A stretch of 64,000 nucleotides of DNA from positions 157,163,424-157,227,423 of the forward strand of contig CP092886.1 in assembly GCA_030710605.1 (NCBI GenBank). Direction: 5' to 3'. Positions within the stretch are counted from its first letter, which is position 1, and the number at the start of each line of letters is the position of its first letter. The notes under the pieces were generated by a model that did not search any database, was not told where the DNA came from, and saw only the letters and a program-made list of their open reading frames with translations. Of this stretch, positions 3,373 to 62,615 are shown one piece after another. This DNA is from Cordylochernes scorpioides. Taxonomy: Eukaryota > Arthropoda > Arachnida > Pseudoscorpiones > Chernetidae. Both the position numbers and the translations under genes were made by a program.

Positions 3373-3594
3373 TTATTTTTTTTTTTGTGAAAAGAGAAAT
3401 ATTCGCGTCTTAATGTTTTCATTTGTTATATATAAATTAAAGCTTATATATTTTATTGTAGATAATTAATACATTATTTATGCTCAACAATATGTTGGGG
3501 AAACCTTAAGGCAATAGCATTCCAACTTTTATAAGAAATGAAACCATTTTCGTTCGATTTTTAAAGTAATAAAACAGCTTTACTATCAACTAAA

Positions 3595-3800
3595 GCATTA
3601 CTATCCTTACTGCGATTAAAATATATGTAGGTATTGGCCAATCAGTGGTGAGCCTTCCTCTCTCTCTCTCTCTCTAGCGGATTTGATATATCTGCCAAAA
3701 CAAATAGGTCAATTTAATAGTAGAGAAGTTTGGCGGATCAAATTGGCGAAACCGCTGAAAGGGGTTAACCACTGATGAGCCAAGTCCTCTCAATATTTTA
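3595..3800. repeat. Two partial, opposed copies of the 371-bp repeat
   Basis: 3595-3705 carries a reverse-orientation piece (CCTTACTGCGATTAAAATAT, AATCAGTGGTGAGCC) with a CT dinucleotide run. 3712-3800 carries a forward piece with ATTGGCGAAACCGCTG and CCACTGATGAGCCAAG but has lost four bases at the predicted cleavage-site strand. It ends near a C-run. Both are old fragments. Confidence 0.6.
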
Positions 3801-5380: not shown

Positions 5381-6084
5381 AATCCTTAATCTAAAACAGA
5401 TGTTTACGGAACAAATTCCAGCATATCTCTTGTGAGAATGGGCGAGAGAGATACATAGAACTAGTTATCTTGCATAAAGATCATTATTTTGAAGCGTTCG
5501 ATAAAATGTTTGTTTTGAAACTGCTTTACTATAGACACATGAGATTTCTCAGCAACACATTTCTTAATTCTTTGATCTCAATAATAATCTATTGTTGTAA
5601 TAAAATGATATATATCCAATTTTTCGCCCCCAATAGTTATTCTTCTCATGACAACTTTCACTCTAAAGTTGCACTACTTACTCTCATATAAATATTACAC
5701 CTTAAATCACTTCATTGGATGCGGTATAAAACTACAATCCTCTAGTTCGATTATAATTTGACCAGTCCACTTAGTTAATCTATATCACTTCATCTTGAAC
5801 AATTTGTTCTACACTATATATCTTCAAACCACCTCTCTCGTGAGAAAATTACTATTTTCTCCCTGCACATACAAGCTTACTCAAATCAATATAAACTTAG
5901 TGTCATCATCTAATGCTTTATCACTACAATGTTTCTTTCTACAACATCATACTTTATTTTAAAACAATCAAAGACTCAATACAATGTTCTGTGTCAGTTG
6001 TTTCACGTATTGTGATGTTGTGTTGTCTGTAATGTGGTTTGTTGTGCTGTCAGTTGTTCAGTGTGAAATGATGTGTGTTGAACT
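5381..6084. other. AT-rich interval, then GT-rich repeat-like stretch
   Basis: No gene was seen. From about 5985 the plus strand turns G+T-rich (GTCAGTTGTTCAGTGTGAAAT), resembling units of the 40-bp array further right. This may be a detached piece of that array. Confidence 0.35.
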
Positions 6085-6496
6085 GAAGGATGGAATCTTA
6101 AAATAGTATATAAGCAAACTATGGACATAATCTTTTAGGACAGTAGAATTACATTCAATTTATATATTCAGGTATTCAAGTTTATTTCGAGCTCTCTAAT
6201 TGGTTGTTCTCTCTCACTGTGCTTAATCAATCAGATAGCTAGCATTGATTTCATTAGCCAATCAAGGTGAAGTGTACGATTAGAACAAACGTATTGACCT
6301 TAGAAACTCTACATTAAATAAAGGAGGTTCATTTTTAGAAAGTTACATATTTGGTATATAAAGGAATGTGGTCTGAATTTTTGTGTAGTTGGCGTGGGGT
6401 GAGGTGGGTGAGGCGAAGTGGTATTTGGAATTCCTATTTATGCCTAACGTGGTTTGTTATTTGGTGTGTAGAATGGTAAGAGGTCTGTTGGTGAGT

Positions 6497-16944: not shown

Positions 16945-19900
16945 TGTCCATATTGGTACAGGTGAACAAGACGGCAGCCCTTAATACTCGTCCTCCATAT
17001 TGTTAGCGGTAAACAAACAAGATGGCAGCCCTTAATACTCGTCCTCCATATTGGAAGCGGTAAACAAACAAGGTGGCACCCTTAATACTCGTCCTCCATA
17101 TCGGTAGCGGTAGACAAATAAGATGGCAACCCTTAATACTCGTCCTCCATATTGGTAGCAGTAAACAAACAAGATGGCAGCTCTTAATACTCGTCCTCCA
17201 TCTTGGCAGCGGTAAACAATATGACAGTCTTTAGTATTCGTTCTCCTCATTGGTAGCGGTAAACAAACAAGATGACAGCCCTTAATACTCGTCCTCCATC
17301 TTGGCAGCGGTAAAAAATATGGCAGCCTTTAGTATTCATTCTCCCCATTGGTAGCGGTAAAAAAACAAGATGGCAGCCCTTAATACTCGTCCTCCATATT
17401 GGTGGCGGTAAAAAAACAAAATGGCAGCCCTTAATACTAGTCCTCCATTTTGGTAGCGGTAAACAAACAAGATGGCTGCCCTTAATTCTCGTCCTCCATC
17501 TTGGCAGCGGTAAATAATATGGCAGTCTTTAGTATTCGTTCTCCCCATTGGTAGCGGTAAACAAACAAGAAGGCAGCCTTCAATACTCGTCCTCCATATT
17601 GGTGGCGGTAAATAAACAAGATGGCAGCCCTTAATACTCGTCCTCCATCTTGGCAGCGGTAAACAATATGGCAGTCTTTAGTATTCGTTCTCCCCATTGG
17701 TAGCGGTAAACAAACAAGAAGGCAGCCTTCAATACTCGTCCTCCATATTGGTAGCGGTAAACAAACAAGATGGCTGCCCTCAATACTCGTCCGCCATATT
17801 GGTGGCGGTAAAAAAACAAAATGGCAGCCCTTAATACTCGTCCTCCATTTTGGTAGCGGTAAACAAACAAGATGGCTGCCATTAATACTCGTCCTCCATC
17901 TTGGCAGCGGTAAATAATATGGCAGTCTTTAGTATTCGTTCTCCCCATTGGTAGCGGTAAACAAACAAGATGGCAGCCCTTAATACTCGTCCTCCATCTT
18001 GGCAGCGGTAAACAATATGGCAGTCTTTAGTATTCGTTCTCACCATTGGTAGCGGTAAACAAACAAGATGGCAGCCTTCAATACTCGTCCTCCATATTGG
18101 TAGCGGTAAACAAACAAGATGGCTGCCCTCAATACTCGTCCGCCATCTTGGCAGCGGTAAACAATATGGCAGTCTTTAGTATTCGTTCTCCCCATTGGTA
18201 GCGGTAAACAAACAAAATGGCAGTCCTCAATACTCGTCCTCCATATTGATAGCGGTAAACAAACAAGATGGCAGCCTTCAACACTCTTCCTCCAAATTGA
18301 TAGCGGTAAACAAACAAGATGGCAACCCTCAATAGGCGTCCGCCAACAATAAGGCAGTCTTTAGTATTCGTTCTCCCATTGGTAGCGGTAAACAAACAAG
18401 ATGGCTGCCCTTATACCTCGTCCGCCATCTTGGCACCGTTAAATAATATAAGACTTTAGTATTCGTTTTCCCCATTGGTAGCAGTAAACAAACAAAATAG
18501 CAGCTCTTAGTACTCATCATCCTTATTGGTAGCGGTAAAAAAGATGGCGCCTCAAGTACTCTTCTCCATATTATCAGCGCTAAACAAACTAGATGGCAGC
18601 CTTTAATACTCCTCCGCCAGCTTTGAACTGGTAAGCAATAAGGCAGCCTTCAGTATTCGTTCTCCCCATTGGTAGCGGTAGCACACAAGATGCCACCCTT
18701 AAACCTCGTCCTCCATCTTGGCAGCGTTTATTAATATAGCAGTCTTTAGGATTATTTCTCTGTATTGGTGGCGGTAAACAAACAAGATGGCAGCCCTTAA
18801 TACTCGTCCTCTATATTATTAGCGGTAAACAAACAAGATGCCAGCCTTTAATACTCGTCTTCCATATCGGTAGCGGTAAACAAATAAGATGGCAGCCCTC
18901 AATACTCGTCCGCCATCTTGGCAGCGGTAAACAATATGGCAGTTTTAGTATTCGTACTCCCCATTGATAGCGGTAAACAAACAAGATGGCTGCCCTAAAC
19001 ACTCGTCCTCCCTATTGGTAGCGGTAAACAAACAAGATGGCAGCCTTCAATACTCGTCCTCCAATTGGTAGCGGTAAACAAACAAGATGGCAACCCTCAA
19101 TAAGCGTCCGCCATCTTGGCAGCGGTAAACAATATGGCAATCTTTAGTATTCTTTCTCCTTATTGGTAGCGGTAAACAAACAAAATGGCAGCCCTTAATA
19201 CTCTACGCCATCTTGGCACCGGTAAATAATATGGCAGTCTTTAGTATTCGTTCTCCCTATTGGTAGCGGTAAACAAACAAAATGGCAGCCCTTAATACTC
19301 TACGCCTTCTTGGCACCGGTGAATAAAATGGCAGACTTTAGTATTCGTTTTCCCTATTGGTAGGGGTAAACAAACAAAATGGCAGCCCTTAATACTCGTC
19401 GGCCATCTTGGCAGCGGTAAACAATATGGCATTCTTTAGTATTCGTTCTCCCTATTGGTAGCGGTTAACAAACAAAATGGCAGCCCTTAAAACTCGTCTT
19501 CCATATTGGTAGCGGTAAACAAACAAGATGGCAACCCTCAATAAGCGTCCGCCATCTTGGCAGCGGTAAACAATATGGCAATCTTTAGTATTCGTTCTCC
19601 CTATTGGTAGCGGTAAACAAACAAAATGGCAGCCCTTAATACTCTACGCCATATTGGCACCGGTAAATAATATGGCAGACTTTAGTATTCGTTTTCCCTA
19701 TTGGTAGGGGTAAACAAACAAAATGGAAGCCCTTAATACTCGTCGTCCATCTTGGCAGCGGTAAACAATATGGCATTCTTTAGTATTCGTTCTCCCTATT
19801 GGTAGCGGTTAACAATCAAAATGGCAGCCCTTAAAACTCGTCCGCCATCTTGGCAGCGGTAAATAATATGTCATTCTTTAGTATTCGTTCTCCCATTAGT

Positions 19901-22900
19901 AGCGGTAAACAAACAAGATGGCAGCACTTAATACTCGTCCGCCATCTTGGCATCGGTAAATAATATGGCAGTCTTTAGTATTCGTTCTCCCTTATGGTAG
20001 CGGTAAACTAACAAGATGGCTGCCCTTAATACTCGTCCGCCATCTTGGCACCGGTAAATAATATTGCAGACTTTAGTATTCGTTTTCCCTATTGGTAGCG
20101 GTAAACAAACAAAATGGAAGCCCTTGGTACTCATCATCCTTATTGGTAGCGGTAAACAAGATGGCACCTTTTAGTACAATTCTCCATATTATCAGCGGCA
20201 AAAAAAAAAACAATATGGCAGCCCTTAATACTCGTCCGCCATCTTTTAACTGGTAAGCAATATGGCAGCCTTTAGTATTCGTTCTCCCCATTGGTAACGG
20301 TAAAACAAACAATATGGCAGCCCTTAATACTCGTCCTCTATATTTTCAGCGGTAAACAAACAAGATTGCACCCCTTAAACCTCGTCCTTGAAGTTGGCAG
20401 CGTTAAATAATACTCGTATGGCAGTCATTAGGATTATTTCTCTGTTTTGGTAGCGGTAAACAAACAAGATGGCAGCCCTAATAATCGTCCTCTATATTAT
20501 CAGCTGTAAACAAACAAGATGGCAGCCCTTAATACTCGTCTTCCATATTGGTAGCGGTAAAAATAAGATGGCAACCCTCAATACTCGTCCGCCATCTTGG
20601 CAGCGGTAAACAATATGGCAGTCTTTAGTATTCGTTCTCTCCATTGGTAGCGGTAAACAAACAAGATGGCTTCCCTTAATACTCGTCCTCCATATTGGTG
20701 GCGGTAAACAAACAAGATGGCTGACCTTAATACTCGTCCTCCATATTGGAAACGGTAAACAAACAAGATGGCAGCCTTCAATACTCGTCCTCCATATTGG
20801 TAGCGTAACCAAACAAGATGGCAACGCTCAATAGGCGTCCGCCATCTTGGCAGCGGTAAACAATATGGCAGTCTTCAGTATTCGTTCTCCCTATTGGTAG
20901 CGGTAAACAAACAAAATGGCAGCCCTTAATACTCGTCCGCCATCTTGGCACCGGTAAATAATATGGCAGACTTTAGTATTCGTTTTCCCTATTGGTAGCG
21001 GTAAACAAACAAAATGGCAGCCCTTAATACTCGTCCGTCATCTTGGCACCGGTAAATAATATTGCAGACTTTAGTATTCGTTTTCCTTATTGGTAGCGCT
21101 AAACAAAGAAAATGGCAGCCCTTATACTCGTCCGCCATCTTGGCAGCGGTAAACAATATGGCAGTCTTTAGTACTCGTTCTCCCTATTGGTAGCGGTAAA
21201 CAAACAAAATGGCAGCCCTTAAAACTCGTCCGCCATCTTGGCACCGGTAAATAATATTACAGACTTTAGTATTTATTTTCCCTTATTGTAGCGGTAAACA
21301 AACAAAATGGCAGTCCTTAGTACTCATCATTCTTATTGGTAGCGGTAAACAAGATGGCGCCTTTTAGTACTATTCTCCATATTATCAGAGGTAAAAAACA
21401 AGATGGCAGCCCTTAATACTCCTCCGCCATCTTGTGACTGGTAAGTAATATGGCAATCTTTAGTATTCGTTCTCCCTAATGGTATCGGTTAACATGATGG
21501 CGGCTCTTAGAACTCTTCCTCCCTATTATCAGCGGTAAACAAACAAGATGGCAGCCCTCAATACTCGTCCTCCATATTGGTAGCGGTAAACAAACAAGAT
21601 GGCAGCCCTTAATACTCGTCATTCATATTGGTAGCGGTAAACAAATAAGATGGCAACCCTCAATACTCGTCCGACATCTTGGCAGCGATAAACAAACAAG
21701 ATGGCTGACCTTAATACTCATCCTCCATATTGGTATCGGTAAACAAACAAGATGGCAACCCTCAAATAGGCGTCCGCCATCTTGGCAGCGGTAAATAATA
21801 TGGCAGTCTTCAGTATTCGTTCTCCCCATTGGTAGCGGTAAACAAACAAGATGGCTTCCCTTAATACTCGTCCTCCATATTGGTGGCGGTAAACAAACAA
21901 GATGGCTGACCTTAATACTCATCCTCCATATTGGTAGCGGTAAACAAACAAGATGGCTGCCCTCAATAGGCGTCCGCCATCTTGGCATCGGTAAACAATA
22001 TGGCAGTCTTTAGTATTCGTTCTCCCTATTGGTAGCGGTAAACAAACAAAATGGCAGCCCTTATACTCGTCCGCCATCTTGGCAGCGGTAAAAAATATGG
22101 CAGTCTTTAGTATTCGTTTTCCCTATTGGTAGCGGTAAACAAACAAAATGGCAGCCCTTAAAACTCGTCCGCCATCTTGGCACCGGTAAATAATATTGCA
22201 GACCTTAGTATTCCTTTTCCCTTATGGTAGCGGTAAACAAACAAAATGGCAGCCCTTAAAATTCGTCCCTTATCTTGGCACCGGTAAATAATATTGCAGA
22301 CTTTAATATTCGTTTTCCCTATTGGTAGAGCTAAACAAAGAAAATGGCAGCCCTTATACTCGTCCGCCATCTTGGCTGCGGTAAACAATATGGCAGTCTT
22401 TAGTACTCGTTCTCCCTATTGGTAGCGGTAAACAAACAAAATGGCAGCCCTTAAAACTCGTCCGCCATCTTGGGACCGGTAAATAATATTACAGACTTTA
22501 GTATTTATTTTCCCTTATGGTAGCGGTAAACAAACAAAATGGCAGCCCTTAGTACTCCTCCGCCATCTTGTAACTGGTAAGTAATATGGCAGTCTTTAGT
22601 ATTCGTTCTCCCTAATGGTATCGGTAAACATGATGGCGGCTCTTAGAACTCTTTCTCCCTATTATCAGCGGTAAACAAACAAGATGGCAGCCCTCAATAC
22701 TCGTCCTCCATATTGGTAGCGGTAAACAAACAAAATGGCAGCCCTTAATACTCGTCCGCCATCTTGGCAGCGGTAAACAAAATGGCAGTCTTTAGTATTC
22801 GTTCTCCCTATTGGTAGCGGTAAACAAACAAAATGGCAGCCCTTAAAACTCGTCCGCCATCTTGGCACCGGTAAATAATATTGCAGACTTTAGTATTCGT

Positions 22901-25600
22901 TTTCCCTATTGGTAACGCTTAACAAAGAAAATGGCAGCCCTTATACTCGTCCGCCATATTGGTGGCGGTAAACAAACAAGATGGCTGACCTTAATACTCA
23001 TCCTCCATATTGGTAGCGGTAAACAAACAAGATGGCAACCCTCAATAGGCGTCCGCCATCTTGGCAGCGGTAAAAAATATGGCAGTCTTTAGTATTCGTT
23101 CTCCCTATTGGTAGCGGTAAACAAACAAAATGGCAGTCCCTTAATTTGGCAGCGGTAAACAAAATGGCAGTCTTTAGTATTCGTTCTGCCTATTGGTAGC
23201 GGTAAACAAACAAAATGGCAGCCCTTATACTCGTCCGCCATCTTGGCAGCGGTAAACAATATGGCAGTCTTTAGTATTCGTTCTCCCTATTGGTAGCGGT
23301 AAACAAACAAAATGGCAGCCCTTAAAACTCGTCCGCCATCTTGGCACCGGTAAATAATATTGCAGACTTTAGTATTCATTTTCCCTTATGGTAGCGGTAA
23401 GCAAAAAAAATGGCAGCCCTTAGTACTCATCATTCTTATTGGTAGCGGTAAACAAGATGGCGCCTTTTAGTACTATTCTCCATATTATCAGCGGTAAAAA
23501 ACAAGATGGCAGCACTTAATACTCGTCTGCCATCGTGTAACTGGTAAGTAATATGGCAGCCTTTAGTATTCGTTCTCCCTAATGGTAGCGGTAAACAAGA
23601 TGGCGACTCTTAGAACTCTTCCTCCCTATTATCAGCGGTAAACAAACAAGATGGCAGCCCTCAACACTCGTCCTCCATATTGGTAGCGGTAAACAAACAA
23701 GATGGCAGCTCTCAATGGGCGTCCGCCATCTTGGCAACGGTAAACAATATGGCATTCTTTAGTATTCGTTCTCCCATTGGTATCGGTAAACAAACAAAAT
23801 GGCAGCCCTTATACTCGTCCGCCATCTTGGTAGCGGTAAACAAGATGGTGCCTCATTGTACTCTTCCTTCATATAATCAGCGGTAAACAAACAAAATGGG
23901 AGCCCTTAATACTCGTCCGCCATCTTGGCACCGGTAAATTATATGGAAGACTTTAGTTTTCGTTTTTCATATTGGTAGCGGTAAACAAACAGAATGGGAG
24001 CCCTCATCATCCTTATTGGTAGCGGTAAACAAGATGGCGCCTTTTAGTACTTTTCTCCATATTATCAGCGATAAACAAACAAGATGGCTGCCCTTAATAC
24101 TCGTCCTCTATATTGGTGGCGGTAAACAAACAAGATGGCAGCCCTTAATACTCGTCCGCCATCTTGGCACCGGTAATTAATATGGCAGCCTTTAGTATTC
24201 GTTCTCCCTAATGTTAGCGGCAAACAAGATGGCGGCTCTTAGAACTCTTCCTCCATATTATCAGCGGTAAACAAACAAGATGGAGCCCTCAATACTCGTC
24301 CTCTATATTGGTAGCGGTAAACAAACAAGATGGCAGCCTTCAATACTCGTCCTCCATATTGGTAGCGGTAAACAAACAAGATGGCTGCCCTCAATAGGCG
24401 TCCGCCATCTTGGCATCGGTAAACAATATGGCAGTCTTTAGTATTCGTTCTTCTATTGGTAGCGGTAAACAAACAAAATGGCAGCCCTTAATACTCGTCC
24501 GCCATCTTGGCACCGGTAAATTATATGGCAGGCTTTAGTATTCGTTTTCCCTATTGGTAGCGGTAAACAAACAAAATGGCAGCCCTTAGTACTCATCATC
24601 CTTATTTGTATCGGTAAACAAGACGGCGCCTCTTGGTACTCTTTTCCATATTATCAGCGGTAAACAAAAAGATGGCAGCCCATATTGCTCGTCCGCCATC
24701 TTGGCACCGGTAAGCAATATGGCAGTCTTTAGGATTCGTTCTCCTTCTTGGTAGCGGTAAACAACAAGGTGGCAGCCTTTAGTACTCATCATCCTTTTTG
24801 GTAGCGGTAAACAAGATGGCAGCTCTTAGAACTCTTCCTCCTTATTATCAGCGGTAAACAAACAAAATGGCAGCCCTTAATACTCGTCCTCCATATTGGT
24901 AGCCGTAAACAAACAAGATGGCTGCCCTTAATACTCGTCCGCCATCTTGGCACCGGTAAACAATATGGGAGCCTTTAGTATTCGTTCTCCCTATTGGTAG
25001 CGGTAAACAAACAATATGGTATCCCTCAGTACTCATCATCCTTAATGGTAGCGTTAAAAAGATGGCAGCCTTTAGTTATCCTTCTCCATATTGGGGACGA
25101 TAAACAAACAAGATTGCAGCCCTTAATACTCGTCCGCCATCTTGGCAGTGGTAAACAAGATTAAAACCTTTTGTTCTCTTCCTCTATATTGGTAGCGGTA
25201 AACAAGATGGCAGCCCTTAGTACTCGTCATCTATATAAGCAGCGGTAAAGAAATAAAATGGCAGTCCTTAGTACTCGTCCTCTATATTGTTAGCGGTACA
25301 CAAGATGGTAGACCTTTGTACTCGTTTCTCATATTGGTAGCAGTAAACAAGATAGTACCCCATAGTACTTGTCCACCATCTTGGCAAAGATAAACAAGAT
25401 GATAGCCATTAGTACTCGTCCTCCATATTGCGGTAGTGGCAAATAACTTGGCAGCTCTTAGTATTAGTCGTCCATATTATTAGTTGTAAGGAAAATGGAA
25501 GCCCTTAATATTCGTAATTCCTATTGGTAGAGGTGATGGCAGCCATTAGTGCTCGTCCTCCATATTGACAGCTGTAAACAAGATGGCAGTCCTTAGCATT
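16945..25600. repeat. 51-bp satellite with higher-order structure (~8.6 kb)
   Basis: The basic unit is 51 bp and contains AAGATGGCAGCCCTTAATAC, TCGTCCTCCATATTGG and TAGCGGTAAACAAAC. A second class begins AATATGGCAGTCTTTAGTAT. A shortened 47-bp class has CCGCCATCTTGGCAGCGG and lacks one AAAC. Classes alternate in trimers of 149 bp (51+51+47) and longer sets near 17.3-18.2 kb. There are roughly 170 units, much better conserved than the two arrays to the left and more decayed at the right edge. Because 51 is divisible by three, the minus strand shows repeating open frames with a 17-residue period. I regard these as non-coding. Confidence 0.9.
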
Positions 25601-31552: not shown

Positions 31553-33908
31553 CAGTAGAACTTGGATAATTCGAACTTCTTTAATTCGAAAACCTCTTTA
31601 ATTCGAATATTTATCTTGGTCCCTAGAATTTCCTATATAAATAATGTTAAAAAATCGTGGATAATTCGAATTATGTCTTGGATAATTCGAACTTTTACGA
31701 GTTAAAATAAGGACCTGATGCCGGTTCAAGGCGTGAAATTTTGCGAAATGACGTTGTAATATTGTAACAACGAATTTGTTATTTTATTATTATTAATTAT
31801 TTTCTTAACAGAGTTATCAATTTTTATGTTTATATTTTGCTACTCTGTAAACTTCCCTCATTGCTTATCTTTTATTTTATCAATTATAGTTTGTCCTTGC
31901 CTTAAATAAATTGCTGTGTCACGCCGAAGTTTGTCTTCCCTAATTTTCCACGTGGCAATATCTTGCCGCAAGAGAAGTACTATATATAATAAATTTATTT
32001 TTATTGGATTTTTGAGACTCCTTATTTATCAAGAAAGCTAAAAGGAGCGAATATGTCAGCGCTTCGAACATACAAAACTTTGACGTTGGCTGAAAAAATA
32101 GCGGCGATTAAAGAAGTAGAGATGGGGATGAAAAAAAAATCCGATATTGCTAAGGACTTTGGGATTCCTCGAAACACGTTGTCGACGTACTTAAAAAATA
32201 AAGAAAAAATTCTCAGGAGTGAAAGTGAGTGTGATAAAGGCCGAAAAAGGTTAAGGGAGCCGGGAAATCCTGATTTGGACAAATGTGTTTTAAAATGGTT
32301 CAAGCAAGCAAGAGATAAGAAGATTCCCGTGAGTGGTCACCTTATAAGAAGCAAAGCTGAACAATTTGCTACTGAAATGGGGACAACCGATTTTAAGGCG
32401 AGTTCTGGGTGGCTAGATGGCTTCAAAGAACGCAACAAAATTTCGTTCAAAACCATTTGTGGAGAAAGTGGGGCCGTTAATCTACAAGTAGCCGAACAAT
32501 GGAAAAATAATTTACGGGAATTGATCCAGGATAAAGACGCTAGAGACGTCTTCAATGTTGATGAAACGGGTCTTTTTTTTTAAATGCACCCCTGACAAAA
32601 CGCTAGCTTTTAAGCATGAAAAATGTCACGGGGGAAAACTATGCAAAGAGAGAGTCACTCTCCTGGTTGGTGCAAATATGGATGGATCTGAAAAGCTTCC
32701 TCTATTGATGATAGGCAAGGCAGCCAATCCACGTTGTTTCAAGAACGTCAAAACGAAGCCAGTGGACTATGCAAACAGCGCAAGAGCTTGGATGACTAGT
32801 TATCTTTTTGAGAAGTGGCTGTTGAACTCGGACAAAAAGTTCACAAAAGAAAAACGAAAAGTTATTTTATTTATCGATAACTGTACTGCACACAACTCAA
32901 TCCCTCCAATGGAAAATGTGGAAGTATTTTTTTTTCCTGCGACTTCGGTTATCCAGCCCATGGACAAGGGAGTCATCAAAAATCTTAAGCATTTTTACAG
33001 ACGGTTTCTAGTTGAGAACATATTGACAGGAGATTCCGAAGCCCTTAAAATCAAACTAGACGTTCTTCAAGCCTCTCGATTGTGTAAGAAAGCTTGGGAC
33101 CAAGTAACGTCCGAAACGATCAAACACTGTTTTAAAAAAGCAGGTTTCGTAAAAAAGGAGGAGGATGAAGAAAATGCAGATGTTATTATAGCGGAAACGA
33201 TGCCTTCAGTTGACGGCTGGGAGGACGTCATTTCTAATCCTACCATCTCGTATGACGATTTTTTAAACGTGGATGACGATGTTGCAGTATGTGGTGAGAT
33301 AACCGACGCAGATATCATCGCTGAAGTGCTCAACCACAACATTGAAAAACAAGACGGCGACGAGGCATCGGGTGATGAAGACGAGTCATCAGTTGCCGGG
33401 GAAATGAACATTCCAAGTGCGGCCGAAGCAACGAACTATATCATGCAACTTAGACGCTTTTTTGAAAGTAAAAATGACGTAAGTCCCTCTATTTTCCACT
33501 CGTTGAATATGTTAGAATCCTTTGTCCTTACTGAAAGACTTAATTCTAGAAAACAGGCTAAGATTTCTGACTTCTTTGGCAAAAATTAAATTTCAGAGTT
33601 CCAACAAAGCAGAATAATCTGTACATTTTTTAACCAGCAATCTGCCTTTTTTTTGTACATTAATACATCAGTTTTGAAATTTTTAAATATGTATATAGTA
33701 TATACATACAATTATTGCACATAATCTAAATATACGGTAAAAATGTAAATTTACAGCAACTAATGTTATTCTTAATAAAGGAATTGATCGAAATTGTGAG
33801 ATTTTTATTGTTTTAAGCCTTTTTATTCAAAACATCTTTAATTCGAATTTTTGGATAATTCGAATTTTTTTATGGTCCCTTGGGGTTCGAATTATCCAAG
33901 TTCGACTG
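31553..33908 (+). mobile_element. pogo/Tigger transposon, nearly intact
   Basis: 2356 bp bounded by inverted repeats. The left end is CAGTAGAACTTGGATAATTC. The right end, read in reverse, is CAGTCGAACTTGGATAATTC. TA stands on both sides (31551-31552 and 33909-33910). Repeated TTTAATTCGAA motifs lie inside both ends. One transposase gene (32053-33589) fills the interior. It is inserted between the transposase and the terminal repeat of an older mariner. Confidence 0.9.
32053..33589 (+). pseudogene. Tigger transposase with a single frameshift
   Basis: Domains in order are an N-terminal CENP-B/pogo helix-turn-helix (TLAEKIAAIKEVEMG, DIAKDFGIPRNTLSTYL), a second CENP-B-type HTH (ASSGWLDGFKERNKIS) and a DDE domain. 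The DDE blocks are NVDETGLF (32553), ILFIDNCTAHNS (about 32870) and SVIQPMDKGVI (about 32950). Spacing between the second and third Asp is slightly short because two residues seem missing before SVIQP. The acidic C-terminal region ends at 33589. The frame breaks only once, in a run of nine T's after NVDETGL (32572-32581), and eight T's would restore it. Length, about 510 residues, is normal for the family. The ATG at 32053 opens the conserved N-terminus. Either a recent disablement or a homopolymer error. Confidence 0.9.
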
Positions 33909-40057: not shown

Positions 40058-40737
40058 CAATGTTTGAAAGATACACAATACAATTAAATACTTATAAATC
40101 ATTTGTGTCACAAATAAAGAATATCATCTTCACCATCTGCACTTTGCTCACAATACCGATTCACATTTTATAGACTAGGCTATTTGATACAAAACATTAT
40201 AAGCCTACTATAAAAGTGTTCAGAGGAGGGCATTTTATGATCAATTGTGTAACAGTAGGGTATTCCATATATGTATAATATAGTCTTAAAGCGTCTGTTG
40301 GTTTTTAAATCCATCTATTCAATATCCGTCGTCCATTCATTTCAATGTGAATAATTATTCCAATAGGAAATGATGAGAAATACTAATAGTTTTATTATAT
40401 ATGGAATTGATATGTATTATAATTCATCTCTCCCTATACATACATTTTGACTACTGAAAAAAAAGTAAATATTTGTATATGAAATGTTTTAGATAAATAT
40501 ATTTGAATGTTCTTGCATACAAAAATGTATATGTAGGCTTTTTTTCTTTCGAGTTCAATCTCACACTAGGGGAGATATATGAAGGGTTAAATAAGAATAT
40601 AGTTCTGACGAATTATAAAAAACTTTCTCTAAACTCTCTGCCCCTCGGATTAAATAAAAAAACAACTTTAAATATAAACACATATTTCCTTAATTTTCAA
40701 TGATTGAGTTGGAAGGCGATTTTAACTGCAGCAAATT
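40058..40737. other. Intronic AT-rich DNA
   Basis: No gene or known repeat was recognised. It leads into the first unit of the 371-bp tandem array. Confidence 0.4.
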
Positions 40738-40918
40738 GCCTAACTGCCCTTGTCTTTATAGTTTGCGGAAGAGCATTGCTCGATGCAAATATTTAAATGT
40801 AATTCTACTGTCCTATAAGCTTATGTCCATAGTTTACTTGAAAACCATTTCTAAGATTCCATCCTTCAGTGTAGCATATAAAAGCAGAATGATCCAATAC
40901 AGTATTAGAGCTCTGAGA

Positions 40919-40977
40919 AGCGGTCTGGTGGATTAAATTGGCGAAACCGCTGGGAGGGTTCACCACTGATGAGCCAA
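40919..40977 (+). ncRNA. Hammerhead-like core with reversed strand order, unit 1
   Basis: In order the plus strand has AGCGGTC (helix III strand plus UC cleavage site, 40919-40925), TGGTGGA (helix I), TTGGC (helix II, 40938-40942), GAAA (40943-40946), CCGCT (helix III), TTCACCA (helix I, 40959-40965), CTGATGA (40966-40972) and GCCAA (helix II, 40973-40977). Helix III has 6 pairs, helix I 7 with one G-U, and helix II 5, including the conserved G10.1-C11.1. All invariant core residues are present. In known hammerheads the strand with GAAA follows the CUGAUGA strand or precedes the cleavage strand in one cyclic order. Here the order is the opposite one, so a single unit must fold as a pseudoknot. 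Within a multimer, canonical type III pairing is possible using the GAAA strand of the next unit. Activity is untested. Confidence 0.55.
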
Positions 40978-41289
40978 GCCCTCCCAATATATTTTTCATC
41001 GCAGTAAGGACAGTAGAAGTTTGTATTATTATAAAAGAAACATTCGCTCTTTTAAATCCTTTTATTTTATATGTATAGATGGCGCGTTATTGCTTTGTAT
41101 TAATTTATGCCTAACTGCCCTTGTCTTTATAGTTTGCGGAAGAGCATTGCTCGATGCAAATATTTAAATGTAATTCTACTGTCCTATAAGCTTATGTCCA
41201 TAGTTTACTTGAAAACCATTTCTAAGATTCCATCCTTCAGTGTAGCATATAAAAGCAGAATGATCCAATACAGTATTAGAGCTCTGAGA

Positions 41290-41348
41290 AGCGGTCTGGT
41301 GGATTAAATTGGCGAAACCGCTGGGAGGGTTCACCACTGATGAGCCAA
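41290..41348 (+). ncRNA. Hammerhead-like core, unit 2
   Basis: Identical to the unit 1 core, 371 bp downstream: cleavage-site strand AGCGGTC at 41290, GAAA at 41314 and CTGATGA at 41337. Confidence 0.55.
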
Positions 41349-41661
41349 GCCCTCCCAATATATTTTTTCATCGCAGTAAGGACAGTAGAAGTTTGTATTA
41401 TTATAAAAGAAACATTCGCGCTTTTAAATCCTTTTATTTTATATGTATAGATGGCGCGTTATTGCTTTGTATTAATTTATGCCTAACTGCCCTTGTCTTT
41501 ATAGTTTGCGGAAGAGCATTGCTCGATGCAAATATTTAAATGTAATTCTACTGTCCTATAAGCTTATGTCCATAGTTTACTTGAAAACCATTTCTAAGAT
41601 TCCATCCTTCAGTGTAGCATATAAAAGCAGAATGATCCAATACAGTATTAGAGCTCTGAGA

Positions 41662-41720
41662 AGCGGTCTGGTGGATTAAATTGGCGAAACCGCTGGGAGG
41701 GTTCACCACTGATGAGCCAA
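41662..41720 (+). ncRNA. Hammerhead-like core, unit 3
   Basis: Identical core, 372 bp after unit 2: AGCGGTC at 41662, GAAA at 41686 and CTGATGA at 41709. Confidence 0.55.
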
Positions 41721-42032
41721 GCCCTCCCAATATATTTTTCATCGCAGTAAGGACAGTAGAAGTTTGTATTATTATAAAAGAAACATTCGCGCTTTTAAAT
41801 CCTTTTATTTTATATGTATAGATGGCGCGTTATTGCTTTGTATTAATTTATGCCTAACTGCCCTTGTCTTTATAGTTTGCGGAAGAGCATTGCTCGATGC
41901 AAATATTTAAATGTAATTCTACTGTCCTATAAGCTTATGTCCATAGTTTACTTGAAAACCATTTCTAAGATTCCATCCTTCAGTGTAGCATATAAAAGCA
42001 GAATGATCCAATACAGTATTAGAGCTCTGAGA

Positions 42033-42091
42033 AGCGGTCTGGTGGATTAAATTGGCGAAACCGCTGGGAGGGTTCACCACTGATGAGCCAA
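42033..42091 (+). ncRNA. Hammerhead-like core, unit 4
   Basis: Identical core, 371 bp after unit 3: AGCGGTC at 42033, GAAA at 42057 and CTGATGA at 42080. Confidence 0.55.
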
Positions 42092-42523
42092 GCCCTCCCA
42101 ATATATTTTTTCATCGCAGTAAGGACAGTAGAAGTTTGTATTATTATAAAAGAAACATTCGCGCTTTTAAATCCTTTTATTTTATATGTATAGATGGCGC
42201 GTTATTGCTTTGTATAAAAAAGGTTATTGGGAATTATTACATTTGTAGATTTTATGTTGTTAATAATCAAATGTATATCAAAATCTCAAATATGTGTTTG
42301 TGTTGTGTGTGAATAATAATTATAAACAAATCAAACTTCATACTAATCCATATATTTTTCAAGCGTCGGGCAACAACAAATAGTTTTAAATAATTCTCTC
42401 TTTCTTCTGTTGCTTTACTTTTTAACCTTTGATCGAAATGACAATGGATACAAATATATTCAGAATTGTATAAAATAAAGAGAAAATCCGTGTCTGTATC
42501 AAAGCTACAAAACCAGAACCTAC

Positions 42524-42766: not shown

Positions 42767-42787
42767 GGCTTCTCGGCCTTTTGGCTA
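42767..42787 (+). pseudogene. U2 snRNA 5'-end fragment
   Basis: GGCTTCTCGGCCTTTTGGCT is the highly conserved start of U2 snRNA (normally ATCGCTTCTCGGCCTTTTGG...). The match stops after about 21 bases and the branch-site pairing region and Sm site are absent. This is a truncated pseudogene or chance-size fragment, not a functional gene. Confidence 0.5.
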
Positions 42788-42984
42788 TATATACATAAAA
42801 CCAAAGTGAATAAATAAATAGATATACTACTATATTTATTGGCTTTATGTGCGATCAGATACAAAGCCTGACATTGAAAATGAAACACCAAGAAAGTGTT
42901 GAAACGCAGACTACAATAAATTATATTTATCTTAGGTATTCTGGAGAGTATGGTGACCAGAAAGCATCTGTACGCCTTAAATAG

Positions 42985-45241: not shown

Positions 45242-45391
45242 AATTTCTACAAAATTAGTGAACTGAATATTGAAAATATTTGGGAAGGCTTGGATCATCA
45301 GTGATGAACTCGTGCTGGGAATGTTTGCCATTTCTGAACTAAGCCTTTCTCAACTATTTATCACATTCAGTTCACTAACTTTAGAAATTCA
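45242..45391. mobile_element. Short inverted-repeat element with 371-family core
   Basis: The ends AATTTCTACAAAATTAGTGA and TCACTAACTTTAGAAATT are imperfect inverted repeats about 26 bp long, giving a 150-bp element. Its interior, in reverse, carries TTCATCACTGATGATCCAAG and TGGCAAAC. These match the hammerhead-like part of the 371-bp family in diverged form. Confidence 0.55.
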
Positions 45392-48378: not shown

Positions 48379-49690
48379 CAAGGTGGGATCAATAAATAAG
48401 GTGAATTATAATTTATTTTAAAAATAAGAACGATATTAAAAATTAGGACTTGATTTATTCAAAATAATCACCTTGGCTTTCTATACATCGTCTCCATCGT
48501 TCTGGCAACTTGTAAATACCCTCTTTATAGGCACTCTTAGGAAGCGTGTGAAAAATATCTTGCACCACTTTCTGGACATCTTCATCCGAGTCAAATCGCT
48601 TTCCCTTTAACTCCTTCTTTAGTAGTCCAAAAAGGAAATAGTCAGAGGGGGCTAGGTCTGGACTATATGCAGGATGTTCTAAAACTTCAAAACCTAGTTT
48701 AATGATTGTAGATACAGTTTTACATGATATATGCGGCCTTGCATTATCATGAAGGAAGAGTACACCTTTACTAAGCTTCCCTCTTCTTTTGTTTCTTATA
48801 CCGGGCTTTAGCTTATTTACAAGAATGTCACAATAAAGGTCGCTGTTCATACGTTGCCTTGAGGATAAAAATCAAGACAGATTGGTCCATCAACATCCCA
48901 AAAAATTGTTAACAAAACTTTACCGGCCGAACGTTGAGACTTGATTTTTTTTTTTTGGTCTTGGAGAGTCGCCTCGTTTCCATTCCATAGATGCACGTTT
49001 TGTCGAAGGATCATAATGATAACACCAACTCTCATCTCCAGTTACAATTTGGTCAAGGAAATGATCACCTTCCTCTTCATACCGCTTTAACAGAGCCTTT
49101 GAAACCCGAATATGGTTAAGTTTTTGGTCCAAATTAAGGAAATGTGGAATCCATCTGCAGCATATTTTTCTAAATTGCAAATGTTCTTTAATAATGGTGT
49201 GCACAGTTCCATAGCTTATATTCAAATTGTCGGCTATGGTAAAAATGGATATTTTTCTATCCTCCAAAATTAAGTTTTCAACCGCATTTATCGTGCTTGG
49301 CGTCGCTGTAACACTTGGTCGTCCAGGTCGCTCAATATCGGTACATGTATTTTGTCCATTTTTGAACTCGTTAACCCATTTTAAATGTTTTTTTGAGATA
49401 AACAAGACTCACCATAGATATATTTCATTCTTTGGCATATTTGAGATGTTTGAATACCTTCTGCCTTCAAGAAACGAATAACTGCAGGTTGTTTAAGCGT
49501 GGTGCAATCCTTCAAGGGAGCTTCCATTTTAGTTTATTTATAAGTCTCGCACCGCGCGTTGGAAAAAAGAACAGAACACCTTAAATAGTTTCTCGGTGTT
49601 ATATTTTAATATTCTGTGGTTTAAATTATTTTTTGCTTTTTTAATTTTTAAGAAATAAGATAATTCACCTTATTAATTGATCCCCCCTTG
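48379..49690 (-). mobile_element. Complete-length mariner transposon
   Basis: 1312 bp, the standard mariner size. The ends are ~32-bp inverted repeats: CAAGGTGGGATCAATAAATA at one end, CAAGGGGGGATCAATTAATA on the other strand, both continuing into AGGTGAATTAT. TA lies on each side (48377-48378 and 49691-49692). It carries one transposase gene on the minus strand and sits in the intron between exons 4 and 3 of the host gene. Confidence 0.93.
48455..49527 (-). pseudogene. Mariner transposase with two frameshifts
   Basis: From an ATG at 49527 (MEAPLKDC) the first ~45 codons lead to a frameshift in an A-run near 49400. The next frame (49405-48920) holds the helix-turn-helix linker (DIERPGRPSV), NISYGTVHTIIKEHL, and the first catalytic block IVTGDESWCYHYDPSTK (about 49010). 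A second shift lies in the T/A-run near 48945. The last frame (48850-48455) holds FLHDNARPH and YSPDLAPSDYFLF, with 34 residues between the second and third catalytic Asp, i.e. DD34D. All catalytic residues survive. Only the two homopolymer shifts disable it. Confidence 0.9.
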
Positions 49691-58806: not shown

Positions 58807-59301
58807 CTACGGCTCCAATTCATTTGTGGTGAACTCTTCTTCCGGAATCTCCAGGCCACCGTGAGAGGGTTCTCTCTCGCAATGCGATTCTCTTCGCAGC
58901 CCTTGTCCGGATGTACTCGGCAGCACTAAGCTTGGCTCTTTCTCTACAGTAGCCTCTGGACTTTCTTTGACAGGTCGCAGCTGATTGATGTGCCTCTTTA
59001 GGGATAGGCCTTCATACCCTATTAGGTAATGGCGGCAACTAAGGAGTTTTAGGATGGTTCCAATTTTCCACTTTGGTCCGGCTGCATAATTTCTGAAATA
59101 AATATCGGAACCAATTTTAAAATGCTCCTGTTTTCTCAGAGCATCAGGAAACCCCTCTCCCTTCATGTCCATTTTAGGCATTAAATTAGAAAATCTAGAC
59201 TTTAGACGTCTCTTCATCAATAATTCAGCTGGAGATTCCTTTAGGACTGACTGTGGAAATGCTCTATGGGCAAACAAAAATCTTTGTAGGTTTGTTTCCA
59301 A
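58807..59301 (-). pseudogene. Gypsy integrase C-terminal part
   Basis: A frame separated from the rest of integrase by a shift near 59310-59330. It starts with LQRFLFAHRAFPQSVLKESP and AELLMKRRL, the usual end of the integrase catalytic region. A chromatin/DNA-binding tail follows (GSDIYFRNYAAGPKWKIGTI, YEGLSLKRHINQLRPV). An acidic Ser/Pro-rich extension ends at the stop at 58807. Confidence 0.85.
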
Positions 59302-59322
59302 GTCATCCTTTTCGTTGTTCTT

Positions 59323-60873
59323 TTATAACGATGTTTTGAATTCGCGCACATACCGCTCAGCTAACCCATTAGTACTTGGATTATATGGACTGGTCTTTGT
59401 GTGCCGAATTCCATTTATTCTGGTGAATTCCTCCATTTCTCTCGAGACAAACTGTCTTCCATTGTCTGTCACTAAGAATTCCGGCAGTCCAAATTTGGCA
59501 AACACTTGCCTTAGATAATCCACAATGGTTTTACTGGTTATATCCCTGAGGATAAATATCTCCAACCATTTGGTATAAGCATCCACTATGACCAGAAACA
59601 TTCTACCCATAAAAGGGCCTGCCAAATCCGCATGTAGGCGATGCCATGGTTTCTCTGGCCAAGTCCATTCTGTAATCATGGAAGGAGGCATGTCTGCAGA
59701 TTCTTGACAGATGGTGCACTGCCGAGCCATATCTTCTATGCTCCTATCTATTCCTGGCCACCAAATATACCTCCTTGCTATTATCTTCATTTTCACCATT
59801 CCAAAATGCATCTCATGTAGATCTATGAGAATTTGAGATCTTAATTTTGGAGGAATCACTATCCGCTCTTTCCACTGAAGGCATCCAAAGTCCACACTTA
59901 ATTCATTCCTAACCTTGTAGTAAGGAGACAAAGGATTTTCTTTCGTGAATTTTGGTGATTGCCAAGTGTCCTCCCGGACATTTCTCAGAACAATTGCAAG
60001 AGTCTTGTCTCTTTTAGTCTCGAATGCCACATCCTGGAATGAAAAGGGAACCTCATTCATTTTTCTTAAGAGCAATATCTGATCATCATCATAAGAAATC
60101 CCCTCATTTGCTTTTAACGGTAAACGTGATAACGCATCGGCATTTCCATGGTCCTCCGTCTTTCTAAACTCCACCGAGTAATGGAAAGCGCCCAGCTTTA
60201 ATGACCATCTCTTTATCCTAGACGCCGCACATAACGGAATTGGTTTGTGTGGTGAAAACAGGTGCATGAGTGGTCTGTTATCAGTCACCAACACAAGCGA
60301 GCGTCCCAAAAGGTATTGCCTGAACTTTTCACATCCGTAGACAATGCTCAAAGCCTCCTTCTCTAACTGGGAATAATGTTTCTCCGCCTCAGTTAGAGTT
60401 CGTGACGCAAAAGCTATTGGACTTTCCTGCTTCTTGTATCTGTGACTAAGTACCACGCCAAGTCCATAGCTCGAAGCATCGCAAGCCAAAACAAGTTCCT
60501 TATCTGGGTCGTAATGTGCCAACACTGAATCATCGGTCAATAATGATTTACATTTATTAAACAAAACCCGATGTTCATTCGTCCATTTCCAAGGGCAATT
60601 TTTCTTCAGCAGTCTGTAAAACGGGGATAAAATAGACGATGTATCCTTGATAAATCTGGCATAATACATTAGCATACCTATAAAAGAACGTAACTGGCCA
60701 ATGTTCTTAGGCTCAGGAGCATTAGACACCGCTTGTATTTTATTCAACATTGGATGCAATCCGTTCTTATCGATACGAAAGCCTAAATATTCCACTGAAT
60801 CCACAGCGAATTTGCATTTTGCCTTATTTAATTTTAGGCCTTTCTCTTCCAATATTTTGAATACTAACTCCAA
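59323..60873 (-). pseudogene. Gypsy RT end, RNase H and integrase
   Basis: 516 codons. The RT thumb/connection ([30 protein letters not shown]) is followed by RNase H with its acidic residues in [22 protein letters not shown] and LVTDNRPL. Integrase has an HHCC zinc finger (LHEMHFG ... CTICQ). Its catalytic D,D,E residues lie in [16 protein letters not shown] and [13 protein letters not shown]. All catalytic residues of these two domains are present. It joins the upstream RT frame through a one-base shift near 60880. Confidence 0.9.
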
Positions 60874-61379
60874 TTTGGACTTGTGTCCCTTGCATCTTTA
60901 CCAGATACTAATATATTATCTATATAACAAGCTACTCCTGGTATATCGGCAAATACATTGTCCATCAACCTCTGGAATTTATTTGGTGCCACAGCCACAC
61001 CATAAGGAAGTCTCCGATAAGCAAATAACCCCTTGGTAGTATTTATATTTACTACTCTTTTTGCTTCATCTGTCAGTTCTACTTGCAGATAAGCCATTGA
61101 GAGGTCCAGAGTTGAGAAAATCGTGCTACCCGATAACCTTGAAAATATTTCATCTATAGTAGGCAATGGATATTTATCTAATATTATTGCCTTGTTTGCG
61201 GTACTTCTGAAATCTCCACAAATCCTAATACTGCCGTCCTTTTTTACAACTGGCACAATTGGCGCTGCCCAACTAGCGTGAACAATAGGTTCCAAAATTC
61301 CTCTTTCAACCATACACTCCAGTTCATCCTCCACTTTCTTTTTCAAAGAATAGGGCAAACTCCGAGCTTTGCAAAACAC
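60864..61379 (-). pseudogene. Gypsy reverse transcriptase, with YIDN active site
   Basis: It covers the RT fingers and palm: LEPIVHASWAAPIVPVVKKD, RICGDFRSTANKA, FSTLDLSMAYLQVEL and LPYGVAVAPNKFQRLMD. The catalytic box reads [12 protein letters not shown] instead of Y-x-DD, because the codon for the second Asp is AAT. This substitution should abolish polymerisation. The frame is separated from protease by a missing base near 61392 and from the RNase H frame by a shift near 60880. Confidence 0.9.
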
Positions 61380-61384
61380 TGGCG

Positions 61385-62329
61385 CTACCTCCTTATGTCC
61401 AATTTGACATCTTTTAAGCAGCCCAGTTCATCTTTAAACAGATTTGCATAACTTTTAATTAATGAGACAATGCAAGATTCCGAAATTTTATTTACATTTA
61501 ATAATTTACTGTAATTTATATTCAAAAATTTCAGCCATTCCCTTCCTAGTAAAATTTCTGGGATACTTTCATCCACCACTATCAATCTAAGTGACATATT
61601 GGCTTCCTTAACAAAAACCTTTCTTTCTCCTACAACCTTTATAGGATTATTGCGAAAGGATATCAGATTTATTGCTGTTGGAATCAATGGTTTCGCCCTC
61701 CATAACTTCTCAAAAATGCTTTTCGGCATCAAAGTTACAGGGCTTCCAGTATCCACAATGCCATTCAATATCTTGCCGTCCACTGTAAGGGCAATCTCAA
61801 CTTCAGTTCCACCCCTAAGGGAAAAGATATTCTGCTGTTGCACACAGCCACTTTTCTGTGTATTTCCTCTGGCCTTGCATACTCTACTTAAATGACCAAT
61901 TCTTTTGCATTTAGAGCAAGTTTTAAACTTATGCGGACATGCTGGCGCTAGGTGCGAATTTTTCATGCCGCACCGGTAGCAAGTCCTTTCTTTGGTCGCA
62001 GTCGTGAAATTTTCCTTCGTAGGAGAGCACTTCGAATTTCTGCTCCTCTCAATATGTGAGGTTACTCTCGCTACTTCTCTTTCATGCAGCTCTTTGGCAT
62101 CTTTCTCTGCCAACTCGTATGAGACTGCCAGGGCAAATACCCTTTCCAATTTCACTTCATCATCCTCTTGCAAGAGCCTCTTTTGAAGGGATTCTGATGT
62201 TGAGCCCGCTACAAATCTATCTCGTAGCATCACTTCAAGCATCTCCCCAAAAGCACAGTTAGAGGCCAGGTGCTTCAACTCTCTCAGATATTCGGAAACA
62301 GTTTCGTTTTCCCTCTGTGTTCGTTTCAA
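61385..62329 (-). pseudogene. Gypsy gag (distal part) and protease
   Basis: 314 codons. A gag segment (EYLRELKHLASNCAFGEMLE, LRDRFVAGSTSESLQKRLLQ) is followed by two zinc knuckles (CYRCGMKNSHLAPACP, CSKCKRIGHLSRVC). An aspartyl protease follows, with active site GIVDTGSPVTLMP and ILLGREWLKFL. The frame ends in KLDIRR where a lost base breaks the link to the RT segment. Confidence 0.9.
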
Positions 62330-62390
62330 GAAAAAGCACCTTTGAGGTATTTTCTTCTTAGGCTCTAAATGTTGCCTATTTTTTTTACGA

Positions 62391-62615
62391 TTAGTTCATA
62401 CGTCTGTGCCTCCATCTTTTCAGGAAAGAATAGGTCGTTACCCAGTTTAAGTATCCCGAGTCCAATAGAGACAGCAAAATCACAACTTTCTTGTGTTCAC
62501 TAGTTTCATTTGCAGTGCACGCAGCATTGAATCTTTGTATAAAGATTTCAAAATCGTCTTCCTTTGGATCGTAGACTCTGAAAGGCACAGTTTGACTAAT
62601 CGCCATTTTTTTCAA
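62391..62615 (-). pseudogene. Gypsy gag, N-terminal part
   Basis: Starts at ATG 62615 (MKKMAISQTVPFRVYDPKED) and continues with DFEIFIQRFNAACTANE and VVILLSLLDSGYL, a typical gypsy gag start. The frame breaks near 62395 and gag resumes at 62329. The T-run at about 62379-62386 lies between the two frames. Confidence 0.85.

Follow-up and report, generated by a model that had tools for sequence, protein, structure and literature searches.

Hammerhead ribozymes of types I, II and III correspond to the three circular orders of the strand blocks that build the catalytic core. A non-circular permutation, type-SGC, was described by Eckert et al. in 2023 (PMC10085705) from 583 predicted RNAs, in which the cleavage strand (S) is followed by the GAAA strand (G) and then by the CUGAUGA strand (C). 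According to that report the type-SGC fold needs a fourth helix that joins stem I to stem II at their far sides. In vitro, cleavage was seen with five candidates presumed to be active and not with one that lacked the cleavage-site bases; in SGC-3, disruption of the bridge helix abolished cleavage and compensation restored it (PMC10085705). The non-circular permutations reported came almost entirely from environmental RNA of unknown organisms, with type-CSG from environmental DNA, and the account of the authors names no motif in the genome of a known organism save one GCS candidate (PMC10085705). Here we examine a type-SGC candidate in the pseudoscorpion Cordylochernes scorpioides, where a 371-bp tandem repeat carries it once per unit. 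The array lies in a 64,000-nt stretch of contig CP092886.1 (assembly GCA_030710605.1, forward strand, positions 157,163,424 to 157,227,423), which we refer to as the window. The unit is very probably a non-autonomous, non-long-terminal-repeat (non-LTR) retrozyme of type-SGC, whose RNA, after predicted self-cleavage and perhaps as a circle, would be inserted by a Penelope-like reverse transcriptase.

Mobilisation by Penelope-like elements (PLEs) has been proposed for animal retrozymes on circumstantial grounds (Cervera and de la Pena 2020, PMC7229834). The Adineta PLEs are described as having duplications of 8-10 bp and inverted pseudo-LTRs (pLTRs), one of which carries a 31-bp tail (PMC3846280). 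For the Anolis PLE it is reported that the enzyme cleaves each of the two strands of AT-rich DNA and extends them, and that reverse transcription starts at two adjacent internal sites, the interval between them being the tail (PMC11167929).

The array in the window was recovered by Tandem Repeats Finder as 371 bp x 4.0 copies with a 99% match at 40737-42215, and its last unit could be matched as far as unit position 367. Its parts are as follows.

40737-42217, plus strand: direct tandem array of four probable retrozyme units (371, 372 and 371 bp and the last one), with its left end at unit position 1 and its right end at unit position ~367
40919-40985, plus strand: putative type-SGC hammerhead of unit 1, predicted cleavage 40925/40926
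40919-40932, plus strand: S block of unit 1 (stem III 5' strand 40919-40924; C17 40925; stem I 5' strand 40926-40932)
40933-40937, plus strand: linker TTAAA of unit 1
40938-40951, plus strand: G block of unit 1 (stem II 40938-40942; GAAA 40943-40946; stem III 3' strand 40946-40951)
40952-40958, plus strand: bridge strand GGGAGGG of unit 1
40959-40977, plus strand: C block of unit 1 (stem I 3' strand 40959-40965; CTGATGA 40966-40972; stem II 40973-40977)
40979-40985, plus strand: bridge strand CCCTCCC of unit 1
41290-41356, plus strand: putative type-SGC hammerhead of unit 2, predicted cleavage after C 41296
41662-41728, plus strand: putative type-SGC hammerhead of unit 3, predicted cleavage after C 41668
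42033-42099, plus strand: putative type-SGC hammerhead of unit 4, predicted cleavage after C 42039

Each unit holds, on the plus strand, the 67-nt block AGCGGT-C-TGGTGGA-TTAAA-TTGGC-GAA-ACCGCT-GGGAGGG-TTCACCA-CTGATGA-GCCAA-G-CCCTCCC, in which the blocks run S, G, C without exception. All four units have GAAA, CTGATGA, C17 and the linker TTAAA, a complete set of hammerhead core residues; CUGANGA, GAAA, U16.1-A15.1 and an H (not G) at position 17 are present throughout. Four helices can be formed in every unit: stem III (AGCGGT/ACCGCT, 6 bp, A15.1-U16.1 included), stem I (TGGTGGA/TTCACCA, 7 bp with one G-U), stem II (TTGGC/GCCAA, 5 bp) and a fourth helix of 7 bp (GGGAGGG/CCCTCCC). The nested minimum free energy fold consists of exactly two adjoining hairpins (z -2.9 for a 79-nt and -2.0 for an 89-nt segment). 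One is formed by stem III and the other by the bridge; their loops contain the stem I and stem II strands, and we infer that pairing between the two loops would give a pseudoknotted core. An initial annotation, made from the letters of this stretch, had placed a complete hammerhead core in each of four tandem units, in a non-circular order that would require a pseudoknot in the monomer. Reading all four units together with a descriptor search over the six block orders bears out both the cores and the order, the repeat analysis bears out their placement, and we judge the need for a pseudoknot to be right. Two side observations concern the array itself. The T run after the ribozyme is one base shorter in units 1 and 3 than in units 2 and 4, a two-unit rhythm, and the whole array recurs 76,998 bp away (C24:157127163-157128643) with the same pattern of unit differences, probably as a segmental duplication.

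The placement of the fourth helix bears directly on the type assignment. GGGAGGG lies directly 3' of stem III and directly 5' of the stem I 3' strand, and CCCTCCC begins 1 nt past stem II. The pair is best read as part of the fold rather than as a switch, because it sits where the type-SGC bridge joins stems I and II. The initial annotation had proposed a switch here, which is probably wrong given that the corresponding helix is described as essential in SGC-3 (PMC10085705); it had also held that no natural hammerhead with this order was described, a statement overtaken by the 583 predicted type-SGC RNAs of that report and by the cleavage of five candidates. We infer from these features that the ribozyme is a non-circularly permuted, pseudoknotted hammerhead of type-SGC, with cleavage predicted. 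A different topology would arise if neighbouring units supplied the strands, since tandem units read S-C-G across their borders; a canonical type III (or type I) hammerhead would then form in multimers alone, with GGGAGGG/CCCTCCC unrelated or acting as a switching hairpin. Dimeric action is indeed reported for amphibian type I retrozymes (PMC7229834). Such a fold would need loops of several hundred nucleotides and would leave unexplained a GC-rich helix of 7 bp that abuts stems I and II with gaps of 0 and 1 nt, as in type-SGC. In addition, the diverged subfamily B described below, whose arms in the loci fetched are mostly shorter than one unit, retains the local S-G-C block. We therefore regard the multimeric hammerhead as decidedly unlikely: the type III fold using the GAAA strand of the next unit, suggested initially, is possible on paper and is not needed.

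The specificity of the motif was assessed with a descriptor covering all six block orders, applied with stems of 4/4/4 and 5/5/5 to the window and to a random control. The four SGC matches are the only ones on either strand of the window, and 10 Mb of order-2 Markov sequence gave 0 matches at each stem setting. With stems of 4/3/3, 248 kb of sequence from the same genome (67 records picked for the repeat, window included) contained 109 SGC matches and 0 in other orders, and the reversed control of this set contained 0. Across 241 phage and prokaryote loci the descriptor returned 308 GSC (type II) matches and 1 each for SGC, GCS and SCG, from which it follows that it recovers hammerheads and that its false-positive rate is small. 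In the sole SGC match among those loci (L068), the G and C strands are also those of a GSC ribozyme, and we regard the match as fortuitous. As to the GSC matches themselves, 291 of the 308 come from IMG/VR contigs (L004-L123), often several per contig on one strand and with varied stem I and III sequences, and the remaining 17 lie in five prokaryote loci. The pattern GGCGAAACC..CTGATGAGCC gave at least 120 stretches of viral sequence, in which type II (GSC) hammerheads are plentiful, and at least 118 prokaryote stretches, 5 of them with GSC matches. Relatives sought in viral contigs with GTCTGGTG..CACCACTGATGAG came to three stretches and were rejected; one is phage sequence without a GAAA block, and the other two gave no match in the descriptor scan. 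The Rfam scan gave no hammerhead family match within the window array; weak matches to SNORD74 on its opposite strand were taken as chance.

The genome (2.62 Gb in 24 contigs) contains the exact 67-mer 10,069 times (5122 + 4947) and the backward control pattern 0 times. Core residues are intact in 140 of 161 full-length ribozymes sampled, 18 of the 179 matches having been left out as not full length. A second, unrelated SGC family was sought with a genome-wide pattern, which gave 480 matches against 1 for its control; the roughly 100 of these that were listed are mostly length variants of the same family. One locus (L342, C3:61419780-61420560) is a 64-bp tandem repeat of 12 copies that consists solely of the ribozyme region, in which another sequence takes the place of the stem III 5' strand; it is possibly a ribozyme-derived satellite.

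Because the four copies in the window are nearly identical, they carry no covariation by themselves, and more distant relatives are informative. Subfamily B has ~73-77% identity to the unit over long matches and its exact ribozyme consensus occurs 19 times genome-wide; from the divergence and the few exact copies we take it to be older. Judged by the best 40 of 2848 first-look candidates scored, the B consensus keeps 62 of 67 ribozyme positions and only ~65% of the flanks (101 of 157 upstream, 71 of 108 downstream), a contrast that may in part stem from the query with which B was gathered, as this overlaps the ribozyme and favours its conservation; the conserved block at unit 61-100 lies outside the query. 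Position 17 changes from C to A in B, which is still allowed. The conservation of the ribozyme block between subfamilies suggests use. The copies also respect the pairing scheme: in 54 distinct ribozymes, standard pairs fill 92.1% of pair cells, and sliding the partners lowers this to 34-57%. The initial annotation had looked to covariation among genome-wide copies, and here the answer is weak, consisting of one clear compensatory change in stem II, U-A to C-G between subfamilies (21 sequences, one event), in a sample of similar copies. Other features of the same sample are unfavourable. Neither the double-change pairs (2) nor the pair types (18) exceed shuffles, which reached these values in 445 and 493 of 500 cases. 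In B, moreover, the fifth pair of stem I is an A-C mismatch in 30 of 31 distinct copies, stem II has an internal mismatch in 16 of 29 and the bridge a G-A in 9 of 30, so that many B copies may be weak or dead.

The same data bear on whether the repeat could be a dead satellite whose hammerhead resemblance is a relic or due to chance. It has in its favour the number of decayed copies, and has to contend with the empty random control, the 10,069 exact intact copies and a conservation centred on the ribozyme; we consider it very improbable.

Thirty-seven array loci were fetched, and insertion anatomy was analysed in 33 non-duplicate arrays, window array included; L242-L249 and L287 were left out as duplicates, and five segmental-duplicate loci were excluded from the end and variant counts. 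Twenty-two of the 33 arrays are head-to-head, with a minus arm followed by a plus arm and the 3' ends pointing outward, and the other 11 are direct. In 21 of the 22 inverted arrays one outer end falls at unit 320-344 and the other at 363-371 (~335 and ~367); the exception, L259, has one outer end elsewhere. Subfamily B shows the equivalent pair in 18 of 21 inverted arrays (end classes 325-355 and 360-386 in B consensus coordinates), one array being long at both ends and two having an end outside the classes. Direct end repeats of at least 11 bp flank 19 of 33 loci, namely 17 of the 22 inverted and 2 of the 11 direct arrays, compared with 7 of 1369 mispaired flanks, and 12 of 36 subfamily B loci compared with 2 of 1260. 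These lengths include a few element bases, the true target-site duplications being ~9-14 bp; L268 and L276 have closely matching flanks, oppositely oriented, and the two may represent a single event, while the long end repeat of L264 consists of a simple run of A and T. A+T makes up 86% of the end repeats (18 repeats). Separately, several arm or array 5' ends lie at unit 1-6, just past the reverse transcription start sites, as if copying had stopped after whole turns, though this is partly an effect of the query cut point.

We attribute insertion to PLE machinery because the array ends match the published PLE signature of inverted termini and a tail. GIY-YIG domains are abundant in this genome (146 matches among 150 scored). 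Among five reading frames scanned, three have a GIY-YIG domain and two a reverse transcriptase domain, one of the latter below the Pfam cut-off; at L331 a reverse transcriptase frame lies upstream of the GIY-YIG match on the same strand. The genome also holds hammerheads of conventional order. A canonical C-to-G-order pattern gave 453 matches, and ~86 of the ~100 listed represent one 24-26-nt motif, the rest belonging to the SGC family; the five canonical-order motifs fetched all match Hammerhead_HH9 (RF02275) below its gathering score. These motifs presumably belong to PLEs.

It could be argued on this basis that the unit is merely the pLTR of an autonomous PLE and not an independent retrozyme. 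The end anatomy is that of PLEs (PMC11167929, PMC3846280), hammerheads are reported in PLEs (PMC11167929, PMC7229834), and an Adineta pLTR has been reported to contain a putative TATA box (PMC3846280). We think this unlikely, because units abut directly in the fetched arrays with no room for an open reading frame (ORF), the window array spans no ORF of at least 110 aa (the ORF search covered the window), and the canonical-order hammerhead of the genome is a different, minimal type I-like one.

The sequence differences among units of an array provide a view of the template from which it was copied. In 28 arrays with at least two units, five segmental duplicates left out, 223 variants were counted, of which 55 are common to every unit of their array, 147 are confined to a single unit and 21 occur in some units. 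Of the 55 all-unit variants, 33 are common to both inverted arms, in 14 loci. With eight loci omitted (L251, L253 and L277 among them) the figures are 55 all, 112 one and 4 some out of 171, and with nothing omitted 56, 170 and 27 in 33 loci. Most of this pattern fits repeated copying of one monomer, as far as can be judged from the variants, and a circle is the simplest monomer template because copying starts inside the cleavage-to-cleavage monomer and crosses its ends. Copying of a cut linear RNA to its end was considered and rejected: it predicts an enrichment of 5' ends at the cleavage site, and 1 of 44 inner ends lies within 3 nt of it.

A stronger competitor is a real ribozyme combined with an unprocessed linear multimer as template, in which case cleavage would be irrelevant to transposition and no circle would exist. 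The behaviour of the Anolis PLE, whose hammerhead mutants are reported to insert normally and whose reverse transcription starts inside a longer RNA (PMC11167929), fits this idea, as do the 17 some-unit variants in L251, L253 and L277. It accords poorly with the 202 variants, out of 223, that are either common to every unit (55) or confined to one (147), with the variants shared across arms in 14 loci, and with the conserved ribozyme block, which suggests that the ribozyme is used. On balance a linear template seems to us possible, though less likely than not. L251, L253 and L277 differ from the other arrays and may reflect mixed templates or later rearrangement.

Returning to a retrozyme moved by a Penelope-like enzyme, perhaps as a circle, a number of points weigh against it and should be set beside the evidence above. 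The three loci just named hold 17 of the 21 some-unit variants and do not suit a single monomer template. Folded as a circle, the monomer shows no unusual stability (z -0.64), and cleavage, transcript and circle are all predictions. The window array itself is direct and has no target-site duplication. No PLE sharing the retrozyme tail was found among 3-kb loci centred on the endonuclease. Finally, the Anolis study reports that the PLE, the only one tested in vitro, inserted unprocessed RNA with the hammerhead dispensable, and that no RNA-seq reads ended at the hammerhead cleavage site (PMC11167929). It also reports no difference in start sites between the strands in vitro (PMC11167929), whereas the inverted arrays analysed here almost always combine the two sites.

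The cycle that we envisage would proceed as follows. Tandem units would be transcribed, probably from a conserved TATA element just upstream of the ribozyme. Each ribozyme would fold within its own unit, the stem III and bridge hairpins forming and their loops pairing as stems I and II, and by analogy with the published type would cut after C17. A host ligase would then circularise the 371-nt monomer. A Penelope-like reverse transcriptase/endonuclease, suggested by the known signature, would open an AT-rich target, and the two target DNA ends would prime on the same RNA at sites ~32 nt apart, with copying for one or more turns. The expected outcome is head-to-head tandem arms ending near 335 and 367 between target-site duplications of ~9-14 bp, which is the anatomy observed.

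Outside the ribozyme, several further blocks are kept between the unit and B: unit 61-100 (37 of 40), the TATAAAAG box, unit 261-280 (18 of 20) and unit 341-360 (16 of 20). The features concerned are listed here.

40877-40884, plus strand: TATAAAAG, possible TATA box ~40 nt upstream of the ribozyme, at the equivalent place in each unit; putative promoter element
40803-40814, plus strand: TTCTACTGTCCT, left arm of a 12-bp inverted repeat flanking the ribozyme, within the conserved block at unit 61-100
41007-41018, plus strand: AGGACAGTAGAA, right arm of the 12-bp inverted repeat; the pairing persists in B via a G-U
41071-41103, plus strand: 'tail' segment of unit 1 (unit 335-367), between the two insertion-end positions of the family; contains AGATGGCGCGTTATTGC and overlaps the conserved block at unit 341-360

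The TATAAAAG region is kept at 9 of 10 positions over unit 139-148 while its surroundings are not, and the block at unit 261-280 holds one arm of the inverted repeat. The occurrence of ATGCAAAT together with TATAAAAG in the A unit had pointed to a promoter of the small nuclear RNA (snRNA) type; this candidate was dropped as the octamer is not kept in B, and the TATA element alone is retained as a lead. It is also possible that short RNA polymerase III transcripts end in the T run after the ribozyme. Degenerate relatives of the unit occur elsewhere in the window, as follows (four matches shorter than 41 nt are left out).

3136-3377, plus strand: degenerate relative (unit 57-294, 91%) with a decayed SGC ribozyme at ~3249-3338
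3599-3658, minus strand: degenerate fragment (unit 217-279, 81%)
3728-3799, plus strand: degenerate fragment (unit 187-257, 86%) with most of a ribozyme
6082-6158, minus strand: degenerate fragment (unit 57-134, 88%)
45273-45309, minus strand: short fragment of the ribozyme 3' part (unit 222-259, 89%)

The remainder of the window is repeat-rich in other ways. Several short arrays of a 28-bp repeat lie at 702-2459, and an 8.5-kb minisatellite at 16947-25430 is built on a 51-bp unit and shows periods of higher order at 98, 149 and 195. A pogo/Tigger-like transposase is encoded in two overlapping reading frames at 31993-33589 (plus strand), the first with CENP-B_N and HTH_Tnp_Tc5, and a Gypsy-type retrotransposon lies in pieces at 58807-62395 (minus strand; reverse transcriptase, RNase H, integrase and protease). 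Transposase fragments at 48455-49408 (minus strand), one with DDE_3 below the cut-off, we take to be mariner-like. Together with the genome size, the pogo-, mariner- and Gypsy-like transposons suggest an animal host. About 20 nt at 42768-42790 (plus strand) seem to us to resemble the 5' end of U2 snRNA, and Rfam gave no match for this stretch.

How, then, does this element compare with the systems described so far? With the published type-SGC hammerheads (HRIMA-1 and type-SGC variants) it shares the S-G-C order, all core nucleotides and a bridge joining the other sides of stems I and II (PMC10085705). The linker between stems I and II is 5 nt long here and typically 3 nt in the published RNAs, and the bridge follows stem III immediately, an arrangement that a few of those RNAs share (PMC10085705). 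The likeness, here one of description, stops at the setting: the ribozyme of the window is chromosomal, present at very high copy number and located inside a mobile element, whereas those published are almost exclusively metatranscriptomic (PMC10085705). A hammerhead resembling the pistol ribozyme (Zhan et al. 2024, PMC11300833) likewise has a pseudoknot, but in that case the pseudoknot helix replaces helix II and the RNA is not presented as a block permutation.

Among the open-access papers listed in our searches (subscription papers and preprints lay outside the scope) we came across no published type-SGC hammerhead from an animal genome or from a retrozyme. What we describe would be a ribozyme permutation of recent discovery housed in an element of a known class, and we did not find the two together in print. 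We propose tentatively, with slightly less than even confidence, that (i) an animal retrozyme has as its functional ribozyme a non-circularly permuted, pseudoknotted hammerhead, which is intact in more than 10,000 copies, (ii) both cut strands prime on the same RNA circle, one per start site ~32 nt apart, giving head-to-head tandem arms and (iii) one genome supports two hammerhead topologies, a type I-like one and a passenger SGC. Through thousands of exact copies in a host genome, as the ribozyme of a mobile element, the non-circular hammerheads would acquire a genomic home, a plausible role and a set of natural variants for study.

With metazoan non-LTR retrozymes the element shares tandem units of ~170-400 bp, one hammerhead per unit and many copies (PMC7229834). 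Its GC content of 36% agrees with the value below 50% given for that class, and the target-site duplications of more than 4 bp given there are seen in the family, although not at the window array (PMC7229834). The ribozymes of the animal retrozymes described are type I, that of the present unit type SGC (PMC7229834). With PLEs it shares head-to-head inverted termini, short target-site duplications, a tail of ~30-40 bp and AT-rich targets (PMC11167929, PMC3846280), whereas PLE hammerheads are reported as minimal type I variants (PMC7229834) and the unit is of type SGC without an ORF of at least 110 aa. The insertion footprints bear on the purpose of the two PLE reverse transcription start sites, which would apparently serve one target end each. 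They bear equally on which enzyme moves animal retrozymes: mobilisation by PLEs has so far been proposed for these elements (PMC7229834), and here the insert ends carry its signature.

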